From assembly GCF_023008545.1 (NCBI RefSeq), contig NZ_CP095397.1, positions 3,399,199 to 3,463,198 on the forward strand: DNA of 64,000 nt, given 5' to 3'. The stretch is from Natribaculum luteum (lineage in GTDB: Archaea > Halobacteriota > Halobacteria > Halobacteriales > Natrialbaceae). The first letter of the stretch is position 1, and each line of letters opens with the position of its first letter. Made by a program: the position numbers and the translations under genes. Of the stretch, positions 2,217 to 42,543 are shown in pieces. The notes below the pieces were generated by a model that searched no databases, was not told where the DNA came from, and saw nothing but the letters and a program-made list of their open reading frames with translations.

Positions 2217-4385
2217 TCAGCTCCCCGTCGGCCGGGACTCTCGAGTCACGGCGACGCCGGGGAGGCTCGGCAACGAGAGGTCGACGCGACGGAGGAACTG
2301 CGCGTTGATCGCGACGATGACCGTGCTGAGCGACATCAACAGCGCCCCCACCGCCGGCGACAGCAGGATGCCCACGGGTGCCAGAACGCCCGCAGCAAGG
2401 GGGATCGCGAAGACGTTGTAGCCGGCGGCCCACACGAGGTTCTCCTGCATCTTCCGGTAACTGGCCCGGCTGAGTTTGACCAGCCGGACGACGTCGAGCG
2501 GGTCGTTCTGGACGAGAATGACGTCGGCCGACTGGACGGCGACGTCCGTCCCGCTCCCGATGGCGATACCGACGTCGGCTCGAGTGAGAGCCGGCGCGTC
2601 GTTGACGCCGTCGCCGACCATCGCGACGAGTTTGCCCTCCTCCTGGAGACGGGTGATCTTCGTGTCCTTGTCCTCGGGCAGCACCTCGGCGAAGTACGTG
2701 CCGACGTCGAGTTCGTCGGCGACCGCGCGAGCGACGTCCTCGCTGTCGCCGGTGAGCATCGCCACCTCGACGCCCAGTTCCTGGAGGGCGGCGACCGCCC
2801 GACGGCTCTCGTCGCGGATCACGTCCGCGAGGGCGAACGCCGCGAGTACCTCGTCCTCGCGAACGAGGTAGACGACCGTCTGTGCGTTCTCGCCCGCGTC
2901 GTCGGCGAACGCCTCGATCCTCTCGGGTGGCTCGATCTCGAGCTGGGAGAGGAGGTTCGGACCGCCGACGTGGACGAGTTCGCCGTCGACTCGAGCGCGG
3001 ACGCCCCGTCCTTTGATCGCCTCGAACGCGCGTGCGTCCGGCGTCGTCACGCCGCGGTCGCTGGCGGCGTCGCGGATCGCCTGCGCGATCATGTGTTCGG
3101 AGTCGCCCTCGACGGCCGCGGCCAGTGCCAGGGCCTCCTCCTCGTCGACGTCCTCGACGGTCGCGACGCCGACGACACCCTGCTCGCCTTTCGTGAGCGT
3201 CCCGGTCTTGTCGAAGACGATCGTGTCGAGTTCGCGGGCCTGCTCCATCGCGATGCGGTCCCTGACGAGCATTCCGTTTCGCGCCGCCAGCGAGGTGTTG
3301 ATGGCGACGACCAGCGGGATCGCGAGTCCGAGCGCGTGCGGGCAGGCGATCACGAGGACCGTCACCACCCGCTCGACGACTCGAGCGTCGAACGCGACCG
3401 CGACGGACCAGACGACGGCGGTGACGGCCGCGGCGGCGACCGCGACGTAGAACAGCCAGCCGGCGGCCCGATCGGCGAGCACCTGCGTCTGGGACTCGCT
3501 CTGCTGGGCCTCCTCGACCAGTCGCATGATGCCCGCGAGCGTCGTCTCCTCGCCGGTCGCCTCGATCCGCACCCGGAGGCTGCCATCGCCGTTTACGGTA
3601 CCACCGATGACCTCGTCACCGGGGTCTTTCGAGACCGGCTTCGACTCGCCGGTGATCATCGCCTCGTTCACGTCGGAGTCGCCCTCCTCGACGACGCCGT
3701 CGGCCGGCACGTTCGCACCCGGCCGGACGAGGACGAGGTCGCCCTCGGAGAGGTCGTCCACCGGCACCTCCTCGGTGTCCCCATCCTCGGTAATTCGCTC
3801 GGCCGTGTCGGGCAGAAGCTGGGCGAGTTCGTCGAGCGCGCTCGAGGCCCGGCGAACGCTTCGCATCTCGATCCAGTGGCCGAGCAGCATGACGTCGACG
3901 AGTGTCACGAGTTCCCAGAAGAACGTCGACGCCGTCGGCACCACGACGCTCGCCAGACTGTAGACGAAGGCGACGGTGATCGCCATCGAGATGAGCGTCA
4001 TCATTCCCGGTGATCGTTCCCGGAGTTCCGGGACGGCCATCTCGAGGAAGGGCACGCCACCGTACGCGAAGACGAGCACCGCGAAGACCGGGTTGATCCA
4101 CTCGCTGCCGGGAAACGTCGGGACCGAAAAGCCGAGCCACGCCTGGAGCGTCTCGCTGTAGAGGAGTACCGGGATCGAGAGCGCCGTCGAGACGAAGAAT
4201 CGTCGACGGAACAGCTCTTCGTGTCCGGCGTGCATCCCACCGTGGTCGTGTCCCCCGTCCTCGTGGTCTCCCTGTCCCTGGTGTTCGGCGTGTGCCGCGG
4301 CCTCATCGGCGTCGGCCTCGTCCTCGAGGAGCGACTCCGCTACCCGCGGTTCCTCCCGTTCGTCCGAACGGCGGTGCTCGTCCAT
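2217..4385 (-). CDS. copB: Copper-type P1B ATPase (CopB-like, CPH motif)
   Basis: A 722-residue heavy-metal P-type ATPase that exports copper across the membrane. The cytoplasmic N-terminus lacks CxxC metal-binding domains and instead has a histidine-rich stretch (eight His within residues 4-55). Visible motifs are TGES (245-248), the transmembrane metal site CPH (348-350), the phosphorylation site DKTGT (392-396) and GDGVNDAP near the end. CPH in place of CPC defines the CopB group, proposed to move Cu(II) or silver. The nucleotide-domain HP motif reads SEHMIA instead of SEHPxA. The DsbA-like lipoprotein gene lies 174 bp upstream on the same strand. Confidence 0.92.
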
Positions 4386-4559: not shown

Positions 4560-5243
4560 TCACTCGCCGGCTCCGTCGACCGCCGCCCGGAGATCCTCGA
4601 CCGACGGATTGACCAGCATCTCGCCGTCGACGAACACGGTCGGGGTCCCTTCGACGCCGCGGTCGAGTCCTTCCTGGCGGTCGTCGCTGATGACCTCGCA
4701 GAACGGCTGGTCCTCGGCGGCCGAAACGACGTCCTCGCGCGGGGCGTCGACGTCGTCGGCGGCGTCGCCGAACAGATCCGTCCCGAGATTCTGCTGGTTC
4801 TGGTACAGCCTCGAGGTGTACTCGAAAAACGTCGCGTCGTCGACGTGGTACTGGACGGCTCGAGCGGCGTTCGCGGCCGGTCGCGCCCACTCCTCGCTGA
4901 CGGGGATCGGGAAGTCCCTGTGGACGTAGCGGACGCGCCCGTCGGCGATGTCGTCCTCGAGCGTCGGTGCCTTCTCGAGTGCGAACGTCGCACAGTGGGG
5001 ACACGAGAAGTCGCTGTAGACAGTCACGGTGACGGGGGCGTCCGAATCGCCTCTGGCGGGCGACTCGAGGTCGGTGATCTGCTCGCCGCTACAGTCGCCG
5101 TCGCCGCTGTTCCCCCCGCCCAGACAGCCGGCGACGGCACCGACCGCACCCGCCGACGCAGCCGCGAGCAGCGCCCGGCGCGACGTCACGGGGACGTTCG
5201 GCCGACGCGATCCGTCCACACTGCCAGTCGATGTTCGCTCCAT
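4560..5243 (-). CDS. DsbA-like thioredoxin-fold Tat lipoprotein
   Basis: A 227-residue protein with a twin-arginine signal (SRRALLAAAS) ending in lipobox VAGC, so it should be exported folded and lipid-anchored outside the cell. The mature part has a disulfide active site, FSCPHC, and a cis-proline loop, GTPTVFVDG, typical of the DsbA/DSBA-like thioredoxin group (PF13462 type). It probably oxidises or isomerises disulfides in secreted proteins. The start ATG at 5243 is chosen because it lies directly before the signal; the frame continues upstream only as an arginine-rich shadow of the UbiA gene. Confidence 0.88.
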   Translation of the reverse strand: MERTSTGSVDGSRRPNVPVTSRRALLAAASAGAVGAVAGCLGGGNSGDGDCSGEQITDLESPARGDSDAPVTVTVYSDFSCPHCATFALEKAPTLEDDIADGRVRYVHRDFPIPVSEEWARPAANAARAVQYHVDDATFFEYTSRLYQNQQNLGTDLFGDAADDVDAPREDVVSAAEDQPFCEVISDDRQEGLDRGVEGTPTVFVDGEMLVNPSVEDLRAAVDGAGE

Positions 5244-34368: not shown

Positions 34369-34956
34369 TCACATCCCGCCGAGGCTGTCGATCAGTTCGC
34401 GCGTGACCTGATCGTGGGTGACGAGTTCGCCGCCGTGCTCGTTGGCGAACGACTCGGCGTCGTCGCGGTCCGAGAACCCGATCAACTCCTCGCCCATCGC
34501 GCCGTGGACGTCGCTTCCGACGACCATCGTGATGTCGGTGACGTCGACCTGATTTTCGGCCTCGAGGTGTGCGGAGATGAACGTCACGCCGTCTTCCCCG
34601 GACAGTTCCCAGTCGACGATCGAGTAGTCCGTCGCGTAGATGATCGTCGGTTCGTGACCGCGGTCTTCCTGGCCGAACACCCAGGTGTACGTGCAGGTTC
34701 CGCTGCAGAACCACGCCGGGCCGTCTCGTCCCTCGGGCAGGTCCTCGTCGTAGAACGCCTGCCCTACGGGACCGGGATGGTGCTCGATGACCATCCCACA
34801 CTCGTCACAGACCTGCTCGTCGTCGAGCGACACCGGCTCAGGGGCGTCGTCGCCGCCGAGACAGCCGGCGAGGGCGGCCACTCCAGCCACTCCCGTCGCG
34901 ACGAGAACGTCCCGTCTCGTCGGTCCGGTACCCGCACGAGCTCTCTCTCGAGTCAT
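34369..34956 (-). CDS. NosL-like copper-binding Tat lipoprotein
   Basis: A 195-residue lipoprotein with twin-arginine signal (TRRDVLVATG) and lipobox LAGC (C32). The mature domain has the NosL copper motif CDECGMVI (C50, C53, Met55), a second cysteine motif WFCSGTC and the typical TIIYATDYSIVDW segment. NosL-type proteins deliver copper to nitrous oxide reductase or other copper enzymes outside the cell; no nos genes are in the window. It is divergent from the SCO gene, 114 bp apart. Confidence 0.88.
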   Translation of the reverse strand: MTRERARAGTGPTRRDVLVATGVAGVAALAGCLGGDDAPEPVSLDDEQVCDECGMVIEHHPGPVGQAFYDEDLPEGRDGPAWFCSGTCTYTWVFGQEDRGHEPTIIYATDYSIVDWELSGEDGVTFISAHLEAENQVDVTDITMVVGSDVHGAMGEELIGFSDRDDAESFANEHGGELVTHDQVTRELIDSLGGM

Positions 34957-35070
34957 ACCCGTCTTTGGCGCTGCAGTCGTAAAGCGCGTCTGGTGTGAAC
35001 GCCGAACGGTCCGCCCGTTCGAGAGATGTACCAGACGCCTCTTGAGTCGCCCGTCCCTAGCCGGCAACAA

Positions 35071-35751
35071 ATGCAGCGACGTACGTTCCTTCGCCTGGGA
35101 GCTGCCGGCGGAGCCGTGGCCGCGAGCGGCTGTCTCACCTCGCTCGTCGGCGACGACGGCACCGAGAACGTGGTCCTCGGGCCACAAGAGGACCAGCTGG
35201 CCGACAGCGAAGACCTCGCCTACCCCGCTTACGGCCAGGCGTTTCCCGACTTCTCGCTTCCCGATCCGCTCGCCGAGACGACGATCGACACTACCGAACT
35301 CGAGGACCAGTGTCTGATCACGACGGCATTTTACACGTTCTGTCCAGCCGAGTGCGTCTCGTTGATCAGTACCCTCGCCGGCCTCCAGGCCGAGACGATC
35401 GATCGCGACCTCGTCGACGACGTCACCTTCCTCGCGATCTCGTTCGATCCGGAACGCGACACGCCAGCGAAACTCCGGGAGAACGCGGAGATAATGCGCG
35501 TCGACCTCGAGGCGGGCAACTGGCACTACCTGCTACCCGAGGAAGTCGAGGAGGCGAGAGCCGTCGTCGACGAGAAACTCGGCATCGCGTTCCAGAAAGA
35601 CAGCGAGGTCGAAGGCTACGAGTTCTCCCACAACACGCTTACGTTCCTGTCTAACCCCGACGACTACGTCGAACGCGCCTACACGAGCGAACGGCCGGAC
35701 ATCGACAGGATGATCGACGACATCGAAACGGTCCTGTCGAACTGGGAATGA
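35071..35751 (+). CDS. SCO1/SenC/PrrC-family copper chaperone, Tat lipoprotein
   Basis: A 226-residue thioredoxin-fold protein. MQRRTFLRLGAAGGAVAASGC is a twin-arginine lipoprotein signal. The copper site CPAEC (C91, C95; CxxxC) and the distal histidine in EFSHNTLTFL are the three SCO ligands, so it should deliver copper to the CuA site of a terminal oxidase or act as a thiol oxidoreductase. ATG 35071 is chosen. The stop overlaps the next gene's ATG by 4 bp, so the two are co-translated. Confidence 0.9.
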   Translation: MQRRTFLRLGAAGGAVAASGCLTSLVGDDGTENVVLGPQEDQLADSEDLAYPAYGQAFPDFSLPDPLAETTIDTTELEDQCLITTAFYTFCPAECVSLISTLAGLQAETIDRDLVDDVTFLAISFDPERDTPAKLRENAEIMRVDLEAGNWHYLLPEEVEEARAVVDEKLGIAFQKDSEVEGYEFSHNTLTFLSNPDDYVERAYTSERPDIDRMIDDIETVLSNWE

Positions 35752-36569
35752 TCGTTCCACTCGAGACGTGCGTCACGCCCGACGTCGACCCCTCGATCGG
35801 CGCGCAGACGTTCGGCCCTGCCGTGTTCTTCCTGATCGGGCTGTTCGGCGGGGCACACTGTCTGGGCATGTGTGGTCCGCTGGTGACGACGTACGCCGAC
35901 CGACTGCGCGAGGGCAACGACTCGAGACGCGACGTCGTGACGGTTCGAGCGGTTCGCCAGCACGCCCTGTTCAACCTCGGCCGGACGGCGAGTTACGCGA
36001 TCCTCGGCGGCCTCTTCGGGCTGGCGGGCTCGCTCGTGTTCGTGACGCCTCGCGACGTCGTCACGGTCGTCGCCGAGGTCCACGCGCTCGCCGGACTGCT
36101 CGTCGGGGCGGTGATAATCGCGATGGGCGTCCACTACCTCCTCGGTCGCGGCGTCCTCGGCGGTTCGGTGAGCATCCCGCTGGTCGGATCGGCGCTCGGC
36201 CGGGTACAGGCGTGGCTGCTCGCCCGCGTCGACGCCTGGGTCGGCGACGGTCGGATCGCAGGACTCGGGGCGGTACACGGCCTGCTCCCGTGTCCGCTCC
36301 TCTATCCGGCGTTCCTCTACGCGTTCGTCCAGGGATCGCCGACCGGCGGCGTCGTCTCGCTCGCCGCACTCGGGGCCGGGACGATCCCGTCGCTGTTCCT
36401 GTACGGCACGTTCTTCCAGTCGGTCAGCGTCGAAACCCGGATGCGACTCCACCGCGTGCTCGGCGTGGTGTTCATCGTCCTCGGGTATATCCCGCTCCAG
36501 CACGGTCTGGCGGTGCTGGGAATTCCGCTTCCACACCCGTCGATCCCGTACTATCAGCCGATCATGTGA
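35748..36569 (+). CDS. UreH_2/SafE-family membrane protein
   Basis: A 273-residue protein with six to seven hydrophobic helices and the signature GGAHCLGMCGP near residues 34-44, mirrored by the proline/cysteine motif HGLLPCPLLYPAFLYA. This is the UreH_2/sulfite-exporter-like family, often next to heavy-metal ATPases and cytochrome oxidase assembly genes and implicated in copper or redox transfer. Its ATG overlaps the SCO stop (ATGA), indicating joint function in copper delivery. The last residues are a Pro/His-rich tail. Confidence 0.85.
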   Translation: MIVPLETCVTPDVDPSIGAQTFGPAVFFLIGLFGGAHCLGMCGPLVTTYADRLREGNDSRRDVVTVRAVRQHALFNLGRTASYAILGGLFGLAGSLVFVTPRDVVTVVAEVHALAGLLVGAVIIAMGVHYLLGRGVLGGSVSIPLVGSALGRVQAWLLARVDAWVGDGRIAGLGAVHGLLPCPLLYPAFLYAFVQGSPTGGVVSLAALGAGTIPSLFLYGTFFQSVSVETRMRLHRVLGVVFIVLGYIPLQHGLAVLGIPLPHPSIPYYQPIM

Positions 36570-37025: not shown

Positions 37026-37292
37026 TCACTTTCGCAGCGACGCGAGAACGAGCAGCATTCCACTCGAGACGAGCAGTGCCTGGATGAGCCCTGCCGACTC
37101 GATCGACGTGTCGAAGACGAGGTAGATGAGCCCCTCGCAGATCGCGCCGGCACCGATGAAGACGAAGCCGACGGAGACGTACAGCATCGGCTCGCTGCCG
37201 TTTCGTCGGTAGCCGTGGTAGGCCAGGTACGCCACCGCGAGGCTCAACGCCAGCGTGATCAGTTTGGCGATGGCGAGCGGTGGCTGGATCAT
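37026..37292 (-). CDS. DUF7521-like small membrane protein
   Basis: An 88-residue protein with three hydrophobic helices: LITLALSLAVAYLAYHGYRR, PMLYVSVGFVFIGAGAICEG and AGLIQALLVSSGMLLVLASL. This is the shape of the DUF7521 family, which in haloarchaea is typically encoded directly after a winged-HTH gene, as here; the ATG overlaps the regulator stop by 4 bp. It may act as a membrane sensor or partner for that regulator (inference). Confidence 0.75.
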   Translation of the reverse strand: MIQPPLAIAKLITLALSLAVAYLAYHGYRRNGSEPMLYVSVGFVFIGAGAICEGLIYLVFDTSIESAGLIQALLVSSGMLLVLASLRK

Positions 37293-37648
37293 TCGTCACC
37301 ACGGAGGTCGTCCCAGAGTGCCGTGAAGTTGTCCGCGAGTTCGTCTCGCGTGTCGAGGGTCAGCGACAGGTCGCCGTCGGTCAACTCGAGCGACAGGCCC
37401 TCGAGCGTCGTCACGAACTCGCTTCTGTGTGCGCCGTCGGGATCGACGGCCGTTCGTTCCTCGAGCAAGCCGTACTCCTGGAGCGTCGAGACGCGACGGT
37501 AGACCGTCGCGAGCGACGAGTCACACGCCTCGCTCAGGGCTTTCGCGGTCATCGGCTGGCGATCCGCGGCGACGAGAATACGTCGCGCGTAGTCGTCTGC
37601 CAGGACGGCAAAGACGTCGCCGGGATCCGGATTCCCCTCCGATTGCAC
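37289..37648 (-). CDS. Winged-HTH regulator (ArsR-like) paired with DUF7521 membrane protein
   Basis: A 119-residue regulator. The HTH is DYARRILVAADRQPMTAKALSEACDSSLATVYRRVSTLQEYGLLEE (quoted in part: motif residues 18-63), followed by a beta-wing and a C-terminal helix DELADNFTALWDDLRGD. GTG 37648 (VQSEGNPDPGDVF) is the best start; the frame upstream is arginine-rich. It overlaps the DUF7521-like gene by 4 bp. Its position between copper/redox genes suggests it could regulate them, but no operator is evident. Confidence 0.8.
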   Translation of the reverse strand: MQSEGNPDPGDVFAVLADDYARRILVAADRQPMTAKALSEACDSSLATVYRRVSTLQEYGLLEERTAVDPDGAHRSEFVTTLEGLSLELTDGDLSLTLDTRDELADNFTALWDDLRGDE

Positions 37649-37742: not shown

Positions 37743-38288
37743 TCAGCGGGACACATCGGTCTCGATCCGGCACTGTTCTGGATTTCCAGTTCGACCCAGG
37801 AAGAACACCAGGAGAGCGAGGCCGGCGACGCGAACGAGGTGGCCCTCGAACGGCAACGCCGCCAGTCCGCCGGCGAAGCCCAGAAATCCCAGCAGTCCGG
37901 CACCACAGCTCGCACAGCCGGACGCGAGAAGTCCGGGGAGGACGCCGGTGAGGTCGGTGAGACTCGAGAGGCCGACGACGCGCAGTTGCGCGGCGGCGTT
38001 GACGACCGCGACGCCGGTGAGGACGGCGTAGAGGACGATCACGCCGAGGGTGGTGAAGCCGTCCGTCTGGTAGGCCGTCTCCGTCAGCGAGATCAGGACG
38101 TAGTCGAACCAGTGCAGCCCCGCACCGAGCATCTGGATTGTGAACTCGGGCATCGTACTGAAGATCAGGACGACGTACGTGACGGCCGCGACGAACGCCA
38201 GCCCGGCGATCCGTCGCCACGTCTCGAACGGGTACGCGAGCGCCGCGCGCAGTTCGTCGAGGAAGTCGGCGAACGCGCTGCTACGCAT
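37743..38288 (-). CDS. Polytopic membrane protein with intramembrane CxxC
   Basis: A 181-residue protein with four to five hydrophobic helices and a loop/helix motif GCASCGAG (C125, C128) plus a cysteine near the end (C173). The gene overlaps the 3' end of the DsbA-like gene by 8 bp, so they are co-expressed. A CxxC membrane protein next to a secreted disulfide oxidant suggests a DsbB- or VKOR-like reoxidation partner, but the sequence does not show a second membrane cysteine pair and does not match those families obviously. The function is therefore a hypothesis. Confidence 0.7.
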   Translation of the reverse strand: MRSSAFADFLDELRAALAYPFETWRRIAGLAFVAAVTYVVLIFSTMPEFTIQMLGAGLHWFDYVLISLTETAYQTDGFTTLGVIVLYAVLTGVAVVNAAAQLRVVGLSSLTDLTGVLPGLLASGCASCGAGLLGFLGFAGGLAALPFEGHLVRVAGLALLVFFLGRTGNPEQCRIETDVSR

Positions 38289-39135
38289 GCTGCACCTCCT
38301 CGATCGCGTCGCGGTACATCTCGTAGGGCTGTGCACCTTTCAACTGCGTCGTCGTGTCCGAGTCGGCGTGAAAGACGAGAAAGCTGGGCGTCGCCGACAC
38401 GCCGTTGGCCGTCGCGCTCTCGGCGTCGGCGTCGAGTCGCGACCGGATCTTCTCGCGGTTCGTCTCGAGGTCGGCCTCGAGGGCGTCGGCGTCGATGCCG
38501 TCGACGTCCTCGGTAAGCGAGAGCAAGGCTGCTCGCGACGCCCATCCCGAGTTCTTCTCGCCCTGGGCGTCGAAGACGGCCTCGTGCCAGCGGAGGTACG
38601 CGTCGGGTCGGTCCTCCTGCACCTGCCGCCAGACGCATTTCGACAGCGCGGCCGCGACCTTCGAGTCGTCACCGACCTTTGGAAGCTGGAGGAGCGCGAT
38701 CCGGACGGTGCCGTCCGCGACGTCGTTTGCGAGTAGCTCCGGAAAGGCGCCCCGTTCGAAGTGTGTACAGAACGGACACTGGTAGTCGCCCCAGTAGTAG
38801 AGGTCGACCGGCGCGTCGCGTGCGCCCGCAATGGGAACTCCGGCCAACGGAACGCCGAGCGCCGTCGTCTCGGTCGTCGCGTGAAAGAGCGAGTCCGTTC
38901 CCAGGGCAGTCGTCGCGGCCGCGACCAGCTCCGCGGTGGATTCGTCGTTCGACGCCGCCTCCGACGCCGGTCGTTTTCCCGCCGAGAGGCACCCGGCGAC
39001 GCTGCCGACAGATGCTGCGAGTCCGCCAAGAACGGCTCGACGACGCGGAGACCGTACCGTCCGGTCGTCTGACTCGTCCACCTCGAGCGGTCGTCGGCCG
39101 CGGCGGCGGTGTCCGTCGGTGTCGATGGAAACCAC
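38281..39135 (-). CDS. DsbA-like thioredoxin-fold Tat lipoprotein (copy 2)
   Basis: A 284-residue protein with a twin-arginine signal (SPRRRAVLGGLAASVGSVAGC; lipobox VAGC) after an unusually long basic N-terminus of about 30 residues. The active site is YQCPFCTHF, with the cis-proline loop VSATPSFLVF, and the helical insert contains GEKNSGWAS shared with the divergent neighbour. It is an extracytoplasmic thiol-disulfide oxidoreductase. It overlaps the CxxC membrane protein gene and is a paralogue of the protein at 39250-40023. Confidence 0.88.
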   Translation of the reverse strand: MVSIDTDGHRRRGRRPLEVDESDDRTVRSPRRRAVLGGLAASVGSVAGCLSAGKRPASEAASNDESTAELVAAATTALGTDSLFHATTETTALGVPLAGVPIAGARDAPVDLYYWGDYQCPFCTHFERGAFPELLANDVADGTVRIALLQLPKVGDDSKVAAALSKCVWRQVQEDRPDAYLRWHEAVFDAQGEKNSGWASRAALLSLTEDVDGIDADALEADLETNREKIRSRLDADAESATANGVSATPSFLVFHADSDTTTQLKGAQPYEMYRDAIEEVQHA

Positions 39136-39249
39136 GTTCGATCGAAACGAGAGCGGCGACGACTAAATTCGTCACCATCGTTTGCTGGGTCAGCAAAACG
39201 TCCCTGCGTTTAGGACCGCGCAACGCTAACGGAAGCGTGATCACAACGT

Positions 39250-40023
39250 ATGGATTCGTATCGGCCGTCCCGCCGCGCGTTCCTCGGCGGTTCGCTGGCA
39301 GTTCTCGGTGGCGGTGCCTATCTCTTCGGCCGCTCCGATGGCTCTACCGACGGACCAACGAGCGTCGGTTCGTCCGGCGGCAACTCGTCCGACGGCATCT
39401 CGCCGACGTTTCACTCGAGCGAACAGACATCCGGACTCGGCGTCGATCTGCAGGGAAAGCCGCTTATGGGGTCGCCCGACGCACCGATCGACCTCTACTA
39501 CTGGACGGACTTCCAGTGTCCGTTCTGTGCGCGATTCGAACGCGAGACGCTCCCCGAAATCGTCCGCAAGCAGGTCGAACCGGGGAACGTTCGCGTCGTG
39601 TTCATCTGGCTGCCGTACTTCGGCGAAGACTCGATGACCGCCGCCGTCGCGGCCGCCTGCGTCTGGCGACGGGTCCGGGACGACTCGCCGGGCACCTACT
39701 GGGACTGGCAGACTGCGGTCTTCGAGGAGCAAGGCGAGAAGAACTCCGGGTGGGCCTCGGAGGAGAGCCTCCTCGAGATTGCCCGGTCGGTATCGGGCGT
39801 CGACGCCGACGCACTCGAGACCTGCCTCCAGAATCGACGCGACGAACTCGAGGCCGAGATCGACGCAGACGTCGAGCAGGCCAGTTCGTACGACGTCACC
39901 GCCACGCCGACGTTCGGAATCTTCGACCGGGAGTCGAAGACGTGGGGCAAACTCGTCGGCGCACAGCCATACGCCAGGTTCGAGGAGGCGATCAGACGCG
40001 TCGACGACGCAGAGGGCGAGTAA
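39250..40023 (+). CDS. DsbA-like thioredoxin-fold protein with Tat signal (copy 3)
   Basis: A 257-residue paralogue of the adjacent divergent protein. The twin-arginine signal SRRAFLGGSLAVLGGGAYLFG has no lipobox cysteine, so it is either a cleaved secreted or an N-terminally anchored form, unlike the other two DsbA-like proteins. The active site is FQCPFCARF and the cis-proline loop TATPTFGIFD; the insert has the shared QGEKNSGWASEES segment. The stop codon directly abuts the stop of the convergent aminotransferase gene with no intervening base. Confidence 0.88.
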   Translation: MDSYRPSRRAFLGGSLAVLGGGAYLFGRSDGSTDGPTSVGSSGGNSSDGISPTFHSSEQTSGLGVDLQGKPLMGSPDAPIDLYYWTDFQCPFCARFERETLPEIVRKQVEPGNVRVVFIWLPYFGEDSMTAAVAAACVWRRVRDDSPGTYWDWQTAVFEEQGEKNSGWASEESLLEIARSVSGVDADALETCLQNRRDELEAEIDADVEQASSYDVTATPTFGIFDRESKTWGKLVGAQPYARFEEAIRRVDDAEGE

Positions 40024-41130
40024 CTACAGCGCCTCGAGCAAGGCGTCGACGTCCTCGCGGGTGTTGAACGCGTGGACGGACGCGCGGATCGCCTCGGGAT
40101 ACGGGAGCGAGCGGACGACGATCCCGCGTTCGGCCAGCCGTTCGACGGTCGCCTCGGGGTCGTCGACGGCGATCGTTACGAGACCGGACTCGTACTCTCG
40201 AGGACTGAGAAGCCGATCTTCTGGAACTCCGTCTTTGAGTCGGTCGGTGAGGCTCGCGATCCGATCTTCGACCGTCTCGATGCCGACCTCCTCGAGGAGG
40301 TCGATCGCCGTCTCGAGTCCGGCGTACGGCGCGGGGCTCGTCGTGCCGACCTCGAACCGGCCCGCACCGGGTTCGTACTCGTAATCCGCGGCGTTTGCCT
40401 CCACGACGCTCCGGTAGCCGATCGCGCTCGGCACGAGGTCGCGTTCGACGCCGTCGCGGACGTACAGGAAGCCGGCCCCGAACGGCCCGAGCAGCCACTT
40501 GTGTCCTGCAGCGGCGACGAAGTCGGCACCCCACTCGTCGACGTCGACGACCGTCTGCCCGGGTGCCTGTACGGCGTCGACCAGCACGGACGCGCCGGCG
40601 TCGTGGGCGATGTCGACGATCTTGCCGATCGGCAGGCGCGTCCCGTGCGTCCAGGTGAGCGAACTCACACAGAACAGGGTCGCGTCGTCGGCAGCAGCTT
40701 TCACGTCCTCTACGTCGACGTATCCTCGCTCGGTCTCGAGGACGCGGACGTCGATCCCGCGTGTGCGCTCGAGTCGTCGCCACGGGAGCACGCCCGCCGA
40801 GTGCTCGAGGTCGGTCCGAACGACGACGTCGTCGTCGCTCCAGTCCATCGCGCCCGCGACGCGGTTGATGCCGTCTGTCGTGCTCTGGGTCAGTGCGATC
40901 TCGTCGGGGGAAGCGCCGAGCAAGTCTGCGACGGCTGCGCTCGCGGACTCGTAGACGTCCGCCGCGGCGGTGTACATCCCTTCGTTTGCGGGAGCTTCGT
41001 ACTCGTGGTACTCGAGGGTCGATTCGATCGCCTCGACGACGCGGCGCGGACTCGGGCCGCTCGCGCCCGTGTTGAAGTAGACGTCGTCCTCGAGGGCGGG
41101 AATGTCGTCACGGAGGTCTGTGGGTTGCAT
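40024..41130 (-). CDS. PLP-dependent class V aminotransferase (cysteine-desulfurase-like)
   Basis: A 368-residue fold-type I class V enzyme. It begins DDIPALEDDVYFNTGASGPSP, has LTQSTTDGINRVAGA, the LVDAVQAPGQTVVDVDEWGADF aspartate and the PLP lysine in AAAGHKWLLGPFGAGFLYV. The pattern resembles SufS/isopenicillin-N-epimerase-like and kynureninase-related enzymes. No catalytic loop cysteine typical of true cysteine desulfurases is obvious, so an alternative role in amino-acid racemisation or beta-elimination is possible. Confidence 0.85.
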   Translation of the reverse strand: MQPTDLRDDIPALEDDVYFNTGASGPSPRRVVEAIESTLEYHEYEAPANEGMYTAAADVYESASAAVADLLGASPDEIALTQSTTDGINRVAGAMDWSDDDVVVRTDLEHSAGVLPWRRLERTRGIDVRVLETERGYVDVEDVKAAADDATLFCVSSLTWTHGTRLPIGKIVDIAHDAGASVLVDAVQAPGQTVVDVDEWGADFVAAAGHKWLLGPFGAGFLYVRDGVERDLVPSAIGYRSVVEANAADYEYEPGAGRFEVGTTSPAPYAGLETAIDLLEEVGIETVEDRIASLTDRLKDGVPEDRLLSPREYESGLVTIAVDDPEATVERLAERGIVVRSLPYPEAIRASVHAFNTREDVDALLEAL

Positions 41131-41196: not shown

Positions 41197-42207
41197 TCAG
41201 GCGGGGGTAGCCGCCTCGGTGCGCTCTGCGTCCTGCTCGTCGAGCCACGCTTCCGCGTCGAGAGCGGCCATACTCCCGGTGCCGGCGGCGGTGATCGCCT
41301 GCCGGTAGTTCGGATCCATCACGTCGCCAGCGCCGAAGACGCCGTCGACGTTCGTCTCGGTCGTCATCCCCTCGAGGGTCAGCAGGTGGCCGTCGTCGTC
41401 GAGGGAAACGGGCGTCTCCTCGAGGAAGTCCGTGTTCGGGACGTGGCCGACGCCGTAGAAGATTCCGCCGACGTCGACGTCATCGCGGTCGACCTCATCG
41501 CCGTTCTCGAACTTCTCCTTGGGGTAGCCGTCGGGGTGGCTCACCAGCGTCGCGCCGGTGACGCCTTCCTCCTGGCTGCCGTGGATCTCGAGCAGTTCGG
41601 TGTTCCAGCGGAACTCGATCTTCTCGTGGTCGAGCGCGCGGCGGGCCATGACCTCGGAGGCGCGCAGTTCGTCGCGACGGTGGACGATCGTCACGCTCTC
41701 GGCGAACTTCGCGAGGAAGAGCGCCTCCTCCATCGCGCTGTCGCCGCCGCCGATCACGAGGACGTCGTCCCCGCGGTGGAACGCGCCGTCACAGGTGGCA
41801 CACGTCGAGACGCCGTAGCCCATCAGCTCGTCTTCGTTCTCGGCACCGACCCAGCGAGCGCTCGCACCGGTCGCGACGATCAACGCACGCGTTCGCAGCG
41901 TCTCGCCGTTCGACAGGGAGAGTTCGAACGGTCGATCCTCGAGGTCAGCGGACTCGACGGTCGCGCGGACGAACTCCGCACCGAACCGCTCGGCCTGCTC
42001 TTTCCCGCGCTGGATCAGCTCCATCCCACCGACGCCCTCGGGGAATCCGAGGAAGTTCTCCACGTCGGTCGTCAGCGTGAGCTGTCCGCCCGGTTCCGGC
42101 CCCTCGAGGACGACCGGCTCGAGGTCGGCCCGTGCGGCGTAGACTGCAGCCGAGAGGCCGGAGACGCCGGAGCCGACGACGACCACGTCGCGTGTCGTCT
42201 CGGTCAT
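41197..42207 (-). CDS. trxB: Thioredoxin reductase
   Basis: A 336-residue FAD/NAD(P)H enzyme. It has the Rossmann GSGVSGLSAAVYAARADLEPVVLEG start, the redox pair CATC (C136, C139), the second dinucleotide fold VIGGGDSAMEEALFL and the terminal GAGDVMDPNYRQAITAAGTG. It reduces thioredoxin with NAD(P)H. The ATG abuts the thioredoxin stop codon with no gap, so the pair forms an operon transcribed from the operator-bearing promoter upstream of trxA. Confidence 0.95.
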   Translation of the reverse strand: MTETTRDVVVVGSGVSGLSAAVYAARADLEPVVLEGPEPGGQLTLTTDVENFLGFPEGVGGMELIQRGKEQAERFGAEFVRATVESADLEDRPFELSLSNGETLRTRALIVATGASARWVGAENEDELMGYGVSTCATCDGAFHRGDDVLVIGGGDSAMEEALFLAKFAESVTIVHRRDELRASEVMARRALDHEKIEFRWNTELLEIHGSQEEGVTGATLVSHPDGYPKEKFENGDEVDRDDVDVGGIFYGVGHVPNTDFLEETPVSLDDDGHLLTLEGMTTETNVDGVFGAGDVMDPNYRQAITAAGTGSMAALDAEAWLDEQDAERTEAATPA

Positions 42208-42540
42208 TTACGCTGCGTAGTTGTCGATCAGCTGCCGGAGCTGTTCGGCCGGCTGGACGCCGACGGTACGTTCGACCTGCTGGCCGTCCGAGTAGAGCAA
42301 GAGCGTGGGGACGCCCTGCACGCCGTTTGCACCGGCGAGTCGCTGGTGTTGATCGATGTCCACCTTCGCGATGACAGCGTCTGTGTCGCTTGCGAGGTCT
42401 TCCAGGACGGGTTCGATCATCTTACACGGGCCACACCAGTCGGCGTAGAAGTCGACGAGGACGACGCCGTACTCGGAGACGACTTCCTCGAGGTGTGACT
42501 GACCGTCGATGTAAACTGGTTCGGTTGGGGTCTGCGACAT
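42208..42540 (-). CDS. trxA: Thioredoxin
   Basis: A 110-residue thioredoxin with active site ADWCGPCKM (C36, C39) and the cis-proline in GVPTLLLYSDG. It has a 15-residue N-terminal extension before the fold. It supplies reducing power to cytoplasmic thiol enzymes together with the directly adjoining reductase. A Shine-Dalgarno GGAGGT sits three bases before the ATG. Its promoter carries a perfect 14-bp palindrome shared with three other redox/sulfur genes in this region. Confidence 0.95.
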   Translation of the reverse strand: MSQTPTEPVYIDGQSHLEEVVSEYGVVLVDFYADWCGPCKMIEPVLEDLASDTDAVIAKVDIDQHQRLAGANGVQGVPTLLLYSDGQQVERTVGVQPAEQLRQLIDNYAA

Positions 42541-42543
42541 CGT

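Follow-up and report, generated by a model that had tools for sequence, protein, structure and literature searches.

A 181-residue membrane protein, termed MP here, is encoded beside two DsbA-like proteins (DsbA1 and DsbA2) in a 64,000-nucleotide stretch of Natribaculum luteum DNA (contig NZ_CP095397.1, positions 3,399,199 to 3,463,198; hereafter the window). The favoured reading is that MP serves one BdbD-like subfamily of haloarchaeal DsbA as a dedicated redox partner in the membrane, most likely by re-oxidising it, as DsbB (BdbC) or VKOR does elsewhere; a probability of about 0.5 was assigned to this reading. The MP family, its invariant cysteines, and its linkage, co-occurrence and parallel divergence with DsbA were observed directly in sequence. 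MP represents an unnamed family that would act as a DsbA membrane partner, the DsbA itself belonging to an ordinary family. If the reading is true, MP is a further answer to what reoxidises DsbA, in organisms possibly without DsbB and VKOR, and a widespread protein annotated as hypothetical gains a function. The question is sharply testable, given a single partner, a set of three cysteines and a pair kept together in 48 genomes.

The locus comprises the following features.

37743-38288, minus strand: MP, a 181-amino-acid polytopic membrane protein (open reading frame, ATG at 38288)
37914-37916, minus strand: codon of C125, first cysteine of CASC (invariant, 70/70)
37905-37907, minus strand: codon of C128, second cysteine of CASC (invariant, 70/70)
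37770-37772, minus strand: codon of C173, third invariant cysteine, 3' of the last predicted transmembrane helix (70/70)
38281-39135, minus strand: DsbA1, a DsbA-like protein with twin-arginine (Tat) signal, lipobox and CPFC (GTG start, upstream limit uncertain)
38281-38288, minus strand: 8-bp overlap of the DsbA1 stop and the MP start (from the sequence)
39250-40023, plus strand: DsbA2, a DsbA-like protein with Tat signal and CPFC, without lipobox, divergent from DsbA1-MP

The arrangement described in the first-pass annotation, a lipobox DsbA with CPFC whose gene overlaps that of MP by 8 bp, is all present in the sequence (stop at 38281, ATG at 38288). The divergent second DsbA-like gene without a lipobox was likewise confirmed.

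Co-occurrence and linkage of MP with one DsbA subfamily

Searches were made in 195 genomes of the haloarchaeal order, incomplete genomes included. MP relatives were split into close and far by E-value, close members being those at 1e-28 or better in a single-sequence search. The DsbA subfamily was defined by a DsbA2 search of the same genomes at E 1e-50 or better. Both cut-offs were chosen after the gaps in E-value had been seen. The DsbA2 search returned 48 genomes at this threshold, a partial match in genome G106 at 3e-40, and no other listed match better than 1e-20. Close MP was found in the identical 48 of 195 genomes, which span 9 families and 23 genera, and neither gene occurred alone at these cut-offs. 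Outside the 48, an 85-amino-acid close-MP fragment (E 2e-6) is present in G150 without a DsbA of the subfamily, and the partial DsbA of G106 is accompanied by far MPs.

Fifty close MP loci were collected, among them that of the window and the closely similar L001; some share one genome and are not independent. Control stretches were 20 arbitrary stretches of genomes carrying close MP loci. A DsbA homologue was present in the fetched stretch of 49/50 close loci vs 0/20 controls. For pairing, 82 close and far loci were taken and the fragments L064, L067 and L119 skipped, leaving 79. DsbA lay within 1 kb of MP in 75 of these, upstream on the same strand in 66, divergent in 7 and downstream in 2; the remainder were L101, L102, L073 and L077. 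A possible MP start overlapped the DsbA stop in 56 of the 66 distinct same-strand loci, and the overlap was 4 bp in 45. Paired distance matrices of MP and DsbA were correlated with r 0.94 over 75 pairs. By subfamily the correlation was 0.84 (47 close pairs) and 0.85 (28 far pairs), with 0/2000 permutations as high in each.

That MP has an independent function and merely accompanies DsbA on accessory islands would be compatible with the 28 plasmid records that encode an MP relative (27 spanning at least 80% of MP) and with surroundings that vary between islands. However, in genome G063 both genes are kept although they lie about 1.09 Mb apart (MP near C1:2.89 Mb, DsbA near C1:1.80 Mb; a broken second MP is also present), and linkage is therefore not the whole reason for co-occurrence. 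The gene overlaps recur in fixed geometry, and DsbA stands beside MP in both subfamilies despite the low identity of far MPs to MP (19-30%). Passive carriage was accordingly rated highly unlikely. Being inherited together with one DsbA subfamily, MP is probably that DsbA's private membrane partner. The first-pass proposal of MP as partner of DsbA is thus well supported by the shared 48/195 genomes, the correlated distances and the recurrent gene overlap, and a dedicated membrane redox partnership with this DsbA appears very probable from these comparisons.

Invariant cysteines and predicted topology

The MP alignment held 70 sequences including the window's (53 close, 17 far), after removal of L003, which duplicates the window, of the split copy L067 and of all matches with E above 1e-20. 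C125, C128 and C173 were invariant in 70/70 sequences and made up 210 of the 218 cysteines in the alignment. The GCASCGAG motif with C125 and C128 had been noted at first pass and stands; the cysteine set given there was incomplete, as the conserved cysteines number three and C173 had been missed. The first-pass idea, which depended on conservation of the MP cysteines, survived this comparison. R166 was kept in 66/70 sequences and is the sole other polar residue at 90% or more across both subfamilies.

The AlphaFold2 model of MP was all-helical, with a mean predicted local distance difference test score (pLDDT) of 83.4 and a predicted template modelling score (pTM) of 0.76. It was read as five membrane helices, at residues 24-45, 78-105, 110-123, 126-144 and 150-167; a helix at 58-76 was left out because it is too polar. 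In the 53 close members, positive charges prevail in loop 101-110 (K+R 1.75, D+E 0.13) and acidic ones in loop 46-77 (K+R 0.77, D+E 3.43). Under the five-helix reading these charges place the CxxC and C173 outside, so that helix pattern and loop charges together suggest an outer-face position for all three cysteines.

Family relationships and distribution

No Pfam or NCBIfam model scored MP itself above its cut-off, no PDB entry matched it by sequence, and a Pfam scan of 56 MP members returned no family that names MP. DUF5676 matched 13/56 members (best E 0.0026). On MP it reached 15.9 of the 27.6 bits required, and the matched residues, 30-96, do not include the cysteines; this name was not adopted. 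The first-pass statement that MP matches neither DsbB nor VKOR held in both the Pfam scan and profile comparison, and the check it had proposed for distant homology to either family found none. The DsbB model PF02600 matched 0/56 members (E up to 10, HMMER filters permitting), and hhalign against 10 haloarchaeal DsbB proteins gave a probability of 0.1%. The VKOR model PF07884 likewise matched 0/56, and hhalign against 10 haloarchaeal VKOR proteins gave 0.0%. As controls of the models, PF02600 detected DsbB in 69/195 genomes and PF07884 detected VKOR in 39/195. MP therefore looks unrelated to both known kinds of DsbA membrane partner. It differs from DsbB also in its five predicted helices and in having three invariant cysteines for DsbB's two pairs. 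With VKOR it shares a predicted membrane CxxC near the outer face and a presumed use of quinone, but it is without VKOR's loop cysteine pair.

The ten haloarchaeal VKOR matches (L153-L162) seem to be of two sorts. Eight lie in frames of 212-266 amino acids with CPFC (one CPLC), and two (L159, L160) in frames of about 500 amino acids with CTLC.

CcdA/DsbD models matched 0/56 MP members, though Pfam also misses one CcdA-annotated haloarchaeal protein. In hhalign against four CcdA-like proteins CcdA homology likewise found no support (probability 0.1%). Fold searches with the MP model gave no convincing match, with a best Foldseek E of 2.7 and a best VIA Z of 5.8 (root-mean-square deviation 9.4), to unrelated helical bundles. 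Neither VKOR nor DsbB appeared among the Foldseek and VIA matches listed, and absence from such lists excludes nothing. A likeness of MP to MerC was also considered; MerC was covered solely by the general Pfam scans (in the scan of the second protein family described below, by the first 25 of 39 families).

A match to MP was found in 61/195 genomes of the order by single-sequence search and in 93/195 by profile search. Across the phylum the profile search found MP in 21/294 genomes, all 21 inside the order. For bacteria, one genome-contig scan with a single sequence, suited to close relatives only, gave 2 loci, both haloarchaeal; bacteria were otherwise covered by the plasmid collection alone. 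Two MP subfamilies were distinguished, the close in 48 genomes and the far at 19-30% identity to MP. Among the plasmid matches listed (20 of 28), 18 were annotated, 18/18 as 'hypothetical protein', with the neighbouring thioredoxin gene named as well in one row. Among the named relatives found, the locus of Natribaculum breve (L001) is the nearest, its MP being 94% identical.

In open-licence PubMed Central titles and abstract openings, neither MP nor the MP-DsbA pairing was described among the matches listed; a description in print elsewhere is possible. The terms DsbA, DsbB and VKOR are absent from the main text of one archaeal thiol review (PMC7278568), by which measure the disulfides of exported haloarchaeal proteins appear poorly charted.

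The two DsbA proteins

Both DsbA proteins have CPFC and a twin-arginine signal by eye, and a lipobox is present in DsbA1 alone; the N-terminus of DsbA1, RRRAVLGGLAASVGSVAGC, holds the Tat motif and lipobox (by eye). The two are 44% identical. Against Thioredoxin_4 (cut-off 23.2) DsbA1 scored 62.7 bits (E 6e-17) and DsbA2 78.9 bits (E 7e-22). Against Pfam DSBA (cut-off 25.6) the scores were 27 and 38.4 bits, both over. The best PDB match of DsbA2, and its best solved relative, was BdbD (E 4e-22), and by sequence both proteins class as DsbA/BdbD-like. The best NCBIfam match of both was the Rcas_1661 family thioredoxin-like (seleno)lipoprotein NF041057 (E 4e-21 for DsbA1, 6e-29 for DsbA2). They reached 76 and 101 bits against its curated cut-off of 190 and are therefore related to that family, not members of it.

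BdbD acts as a thiol oxidase and is partnered by BdbC, a homologue of DsbB. The locus resembles the BdbC-BdbD and DsbB-DsbA systems in that a secreted protein of DsbA fold is encoded together with a small polytopic CxxC membrane protein.

In N. breve the DsbA1 counterpart (L001:5697-6012) is a relic without the CPFC centre and the lipobox cysteine. MP and DsbA2 are both intact there, with ratios of nonsynonymous to synonymous change (dN/dS) relative to the window of 0.36 for MP (22 changes only) and 0.21 for DsbA2. The nearest DsbA is divergent in 7 further MP loci, five of them labelled as the window's own family (L021, L022, L103, L104, L105), one Natronococcus (L002) and one another family (L031). 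Because DsbA1 has decayed in N. breve and a divergent DsbA recurs in these loci, DsbA2 is probably the older MP partner here and DsbA1 a lineage-specific extra. A correction to the first-pass picture is that the nearest relative has kept the divergent DsbA2 and not the overlapping DsbA1.

Another DsbA-like protein (Thioredoxin_4), with a lipobox by eye, is encoded at about 4560-5240 (minus strand) of the window. A P-type ATPase gene (2217-4385, minus strand) adjoins it, and no MP lies beside that DsbA.

Proposed re-oxidation of DsbA by MP

In the proposed scheme, the secreted DsbA (CPFC) would oxidise exported proteins and so become reduced. Reduced DsbA would dock at the outer face of MP and pass electrons to the C125-x-x-C128 pair. 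C173, with R166 nearby, may act as a third, resolving or docking cysteine, and MP would hand the electrons to a membrane acceptor, presumably menaquinone. The direction of electron flow and the quinone are what we infer.

A re-oxidising role, as suggested at first pass, is plausible on several grounds. Searches of the window's own genome for VKOR (PF07884) and DsbB gave no match. DsbB was found in 5/48 genomes with close MP vs 64/147 without (Fisher 2e-5, kinship ignored), a pattern of avoidance. The DsbA is BdbD-like, and the three MP cysteines are predicted to lie outside.

Other observations count against MP as a simple replacement of DsbB or VKOR, or against the re-oxidising role altogether. 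MP, VKOR and DsbB are all missing from 49/195 genomes (incomplete genomes counted), and 42 of these 49 still hold a Thioredoxin_4 protein; haloarchaea are therefore not obviously in need of a known reoxidase. In those 42 genomes, either another reoxidase exists or the Thioredoxin_4 proteins need none. VKOR co-occurs with close MP in 13/48 genomes, with no avoidance (kinship ignored), and DsbB is comparatively common where MP is of the far type only (23/45 vs 46/150, p 0.02, kinship ignored). The MP cysteines number three, not two pairs as in DsbB and VKOR, and its quinone site is putative. Few charges underlie the topology: the C-terminal segment, although placed outside, carries a slight positive excess in close members (K+R 2.49, D+E 1.92), and the 101-110 loop is neutral in the 17 far members (K+R 1.24, D+E 1.29). 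In the AlphaFold2 model the pLDDT is about 60-74 over residues ~100-150, making the CxxC region the least sure. Genes that merely travel as one unit would be expected to show such co-occurrence and mirror-tree correlation too. Finally, the CcdA-like gene in 12/50 and thioredoxin in 20/50 close loci, with persulfide or sulfur-carrier genes in some islands, would suit a reducing or sulfur role.

A strict rule by which every genome has MP, VKOR or DsbB was also tried and fails on the 49 genomes with none.

Island surroundings and a possible reducing role

The genes surrounding the locus in the window are as follows.

37289-37642, minus strand: winged-helix regulator downstream of MP, associated gene (HTH_20 over cut-off)
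37026-37292, minus strand: DUF7521 membrane protein overlapping the regulator, associated gene (PF24365, E 4e-19)
40024-41130, minus strand: class V aminotransferase, cysteine-desulfurase-like, context (Aminotran_5, E 3e-57)
41197-42207, minus strand: thioredoxin-reductase-like flavoprotein, context (Pyr_redox_2, E 2e-43; named from the adjoining thioredoxin)
42208-42543, minus strand: thioredoxin, context (Thioredoxin, E 4e-28)

Common themes of the islands appear to be thiol redox, reactive sulfur and copper, and for this reason a reducing or sulfur-carrying role of MP was still considered. A thioredoxin (trxA) homologue was present in 20/50 close loci and a CcdA-like gene in 12/50, each vs 0/20 control stretches. 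CcdA and 'integral membrane transporter' queries matched the same 12 loci; the protein annotated with the latter name at L125:6523-7455 is without a Pfam match and 59% identical to a CcdA-annotated protein. In several genomes a CcdA-like gene of this type lies directly 3' of MP. Rhodanese-MBL fusions were found in 9/50 close loci vs 1/20 control stretches, TusA in 4/50, YeeE/YedE in 2/50 and multicopper oxidase in 2/50. Further sulfur genes in some islands were DUF6691, TauE/SafE, DsrE2, a CoA-disulfide-reductase-like flavoprotein and a cysteine-desulfurase-like gene. Other islands hold multicopper oxidase or copper-binding genes, and one holds a molybdopterin oxidoreductase with NrfD/PsrC.

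MP could act as a reducing partner, electrons passing outward from thioredoxin or a CcdA-like neighbour and keeping the DsbA-like protein reduced, as DsbD and ScsB do for DsbC and ScsC. The trxA and CcdA-like counts, the CcdA-like gene directly after MP, and the thioredoxin and thioredoxin-reductase-like genes beside the locus in the window would all agree with this. So would the likeness of some islands to the suppressor of copper sensitivity (Scs) system, in which DsbA-like and CcdA-like genes share one island, as in the 12/50 close loci; in three named plasmids TlpA, SCO and CcdA lie downstream, completing an Scs-type set of DsbA-like, CcdA/DsbD-like and TlpA-like genes. However, TlpA was found in 0/50 close loci within the fetched flanks. 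All invariant MP cysteines are predicted on one (outer) side, unlike in CcdA/DsbD, and there would therefore be no cysteine relay spanning the membrane. MP has no profile similarity to the four CcdA-like proteins, and CcdA, where present, is already a reducing route, so that MP would be redundant as a reducer. The DsbA is also BdbD-like. A reducing MP was on these grounds judged unlikely, and re-oxidation of DsbA is retained as the preferred reading.

Second CxxC membrane protein

A second unnamed family of small membrane proteins is encoded near MP in 27/50 close loci (e.g. L121:6531-7025, L127:6540-6953), and its gene overlaps the end of MP by 4 bp in 8/12 annotated plasmid loci. The protein has GCPxCN at the position of the MP CxxC and a further C-terminal CxxC. 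None of its four cysteines varies among 27 aligned sequences, and all four are kept in 39/40 of a wider set, the exception being a fragment. In a profile comparison with MP, the CxxC motifs of the two families fell together in an alignment of 118 columns (E 2e-4, probability 46%), which is suggestive, not proof, of common descent. The second protein occurs in 51/195 genomes, and close MP is present in 39 of the 51 (odds ratio 49, p 8e-22). The window's own genome (G000) encodes it twice outside the locus (C2:14673-15125 and C1:24816-25217), in one case directly after a partial MP match.

MerT was considered for this family and rejected. PF02411 matched 3/27 members weakly (best E 0.0057, under cut-off). 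A search of the 195 genomes gave 34 weak matches and 0 over cut-off, with one place (in G150) on a second-family gene and none on MP.

The two membrane proteins might instead be thiol-ligand carriers, to which the DsbA-like protein would hand sulfane sulfur or a soft metal for delivery into or through the membrane. In favour are the loci that form sulfur islands, of which there are several, the multicopper oxidase or copper-binding genes of other loci, and the weak MerT matches. Against this, no MerT match exceeded its cut-off in any of the 195 genomes and only one fell on a second-family gene. Each sulfur or copper gene is confined to a minority of close loci, whereas DsbA is in 49/50, and a CxxC thioredoxin fold is not needed in the partner of a carrier. 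A carrier role was considered improbable.

Re-oxidation of DsbA by MP can be extended to a broader and more tentative proposal, held at somewhat less than even odds. Five-helix MP, with its CxxC and one further cysteine, and the distant two-CxxC paralogue would form a third, independently evolved class of haloarchaeal membrane thiol oxidase for DsbA, next to DsbB and VKOR. Together they would serve one DsbA subfamily as a relay in the membrane, and the accessory islands that carry them would shield exported thiols from sulfide, persulfide and copper.

Associated genes and neighbouring clusters

Homologues of the winged-helix regulator and of the DUF7521 gene were each found in 27/50 close MP loci and 0/20 control stretches. 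The pair (37026-37642) is perhaps a membrane-linked regulator of the island. The product of 40024-41130 scored 184 bits against the SufS model, under its cut-off of 475, and a homologue was present in 8/50 close MP loci.

A second redox and copper cluster lies just beyond the locus at 34369-36569. It includes SCO1/SenC (35071-35751) and a DsbD_2-type membrane protein (35748-36569), and a NosL-like lipoprotein reading, identified by eye only, precedes SCO1/SenC.

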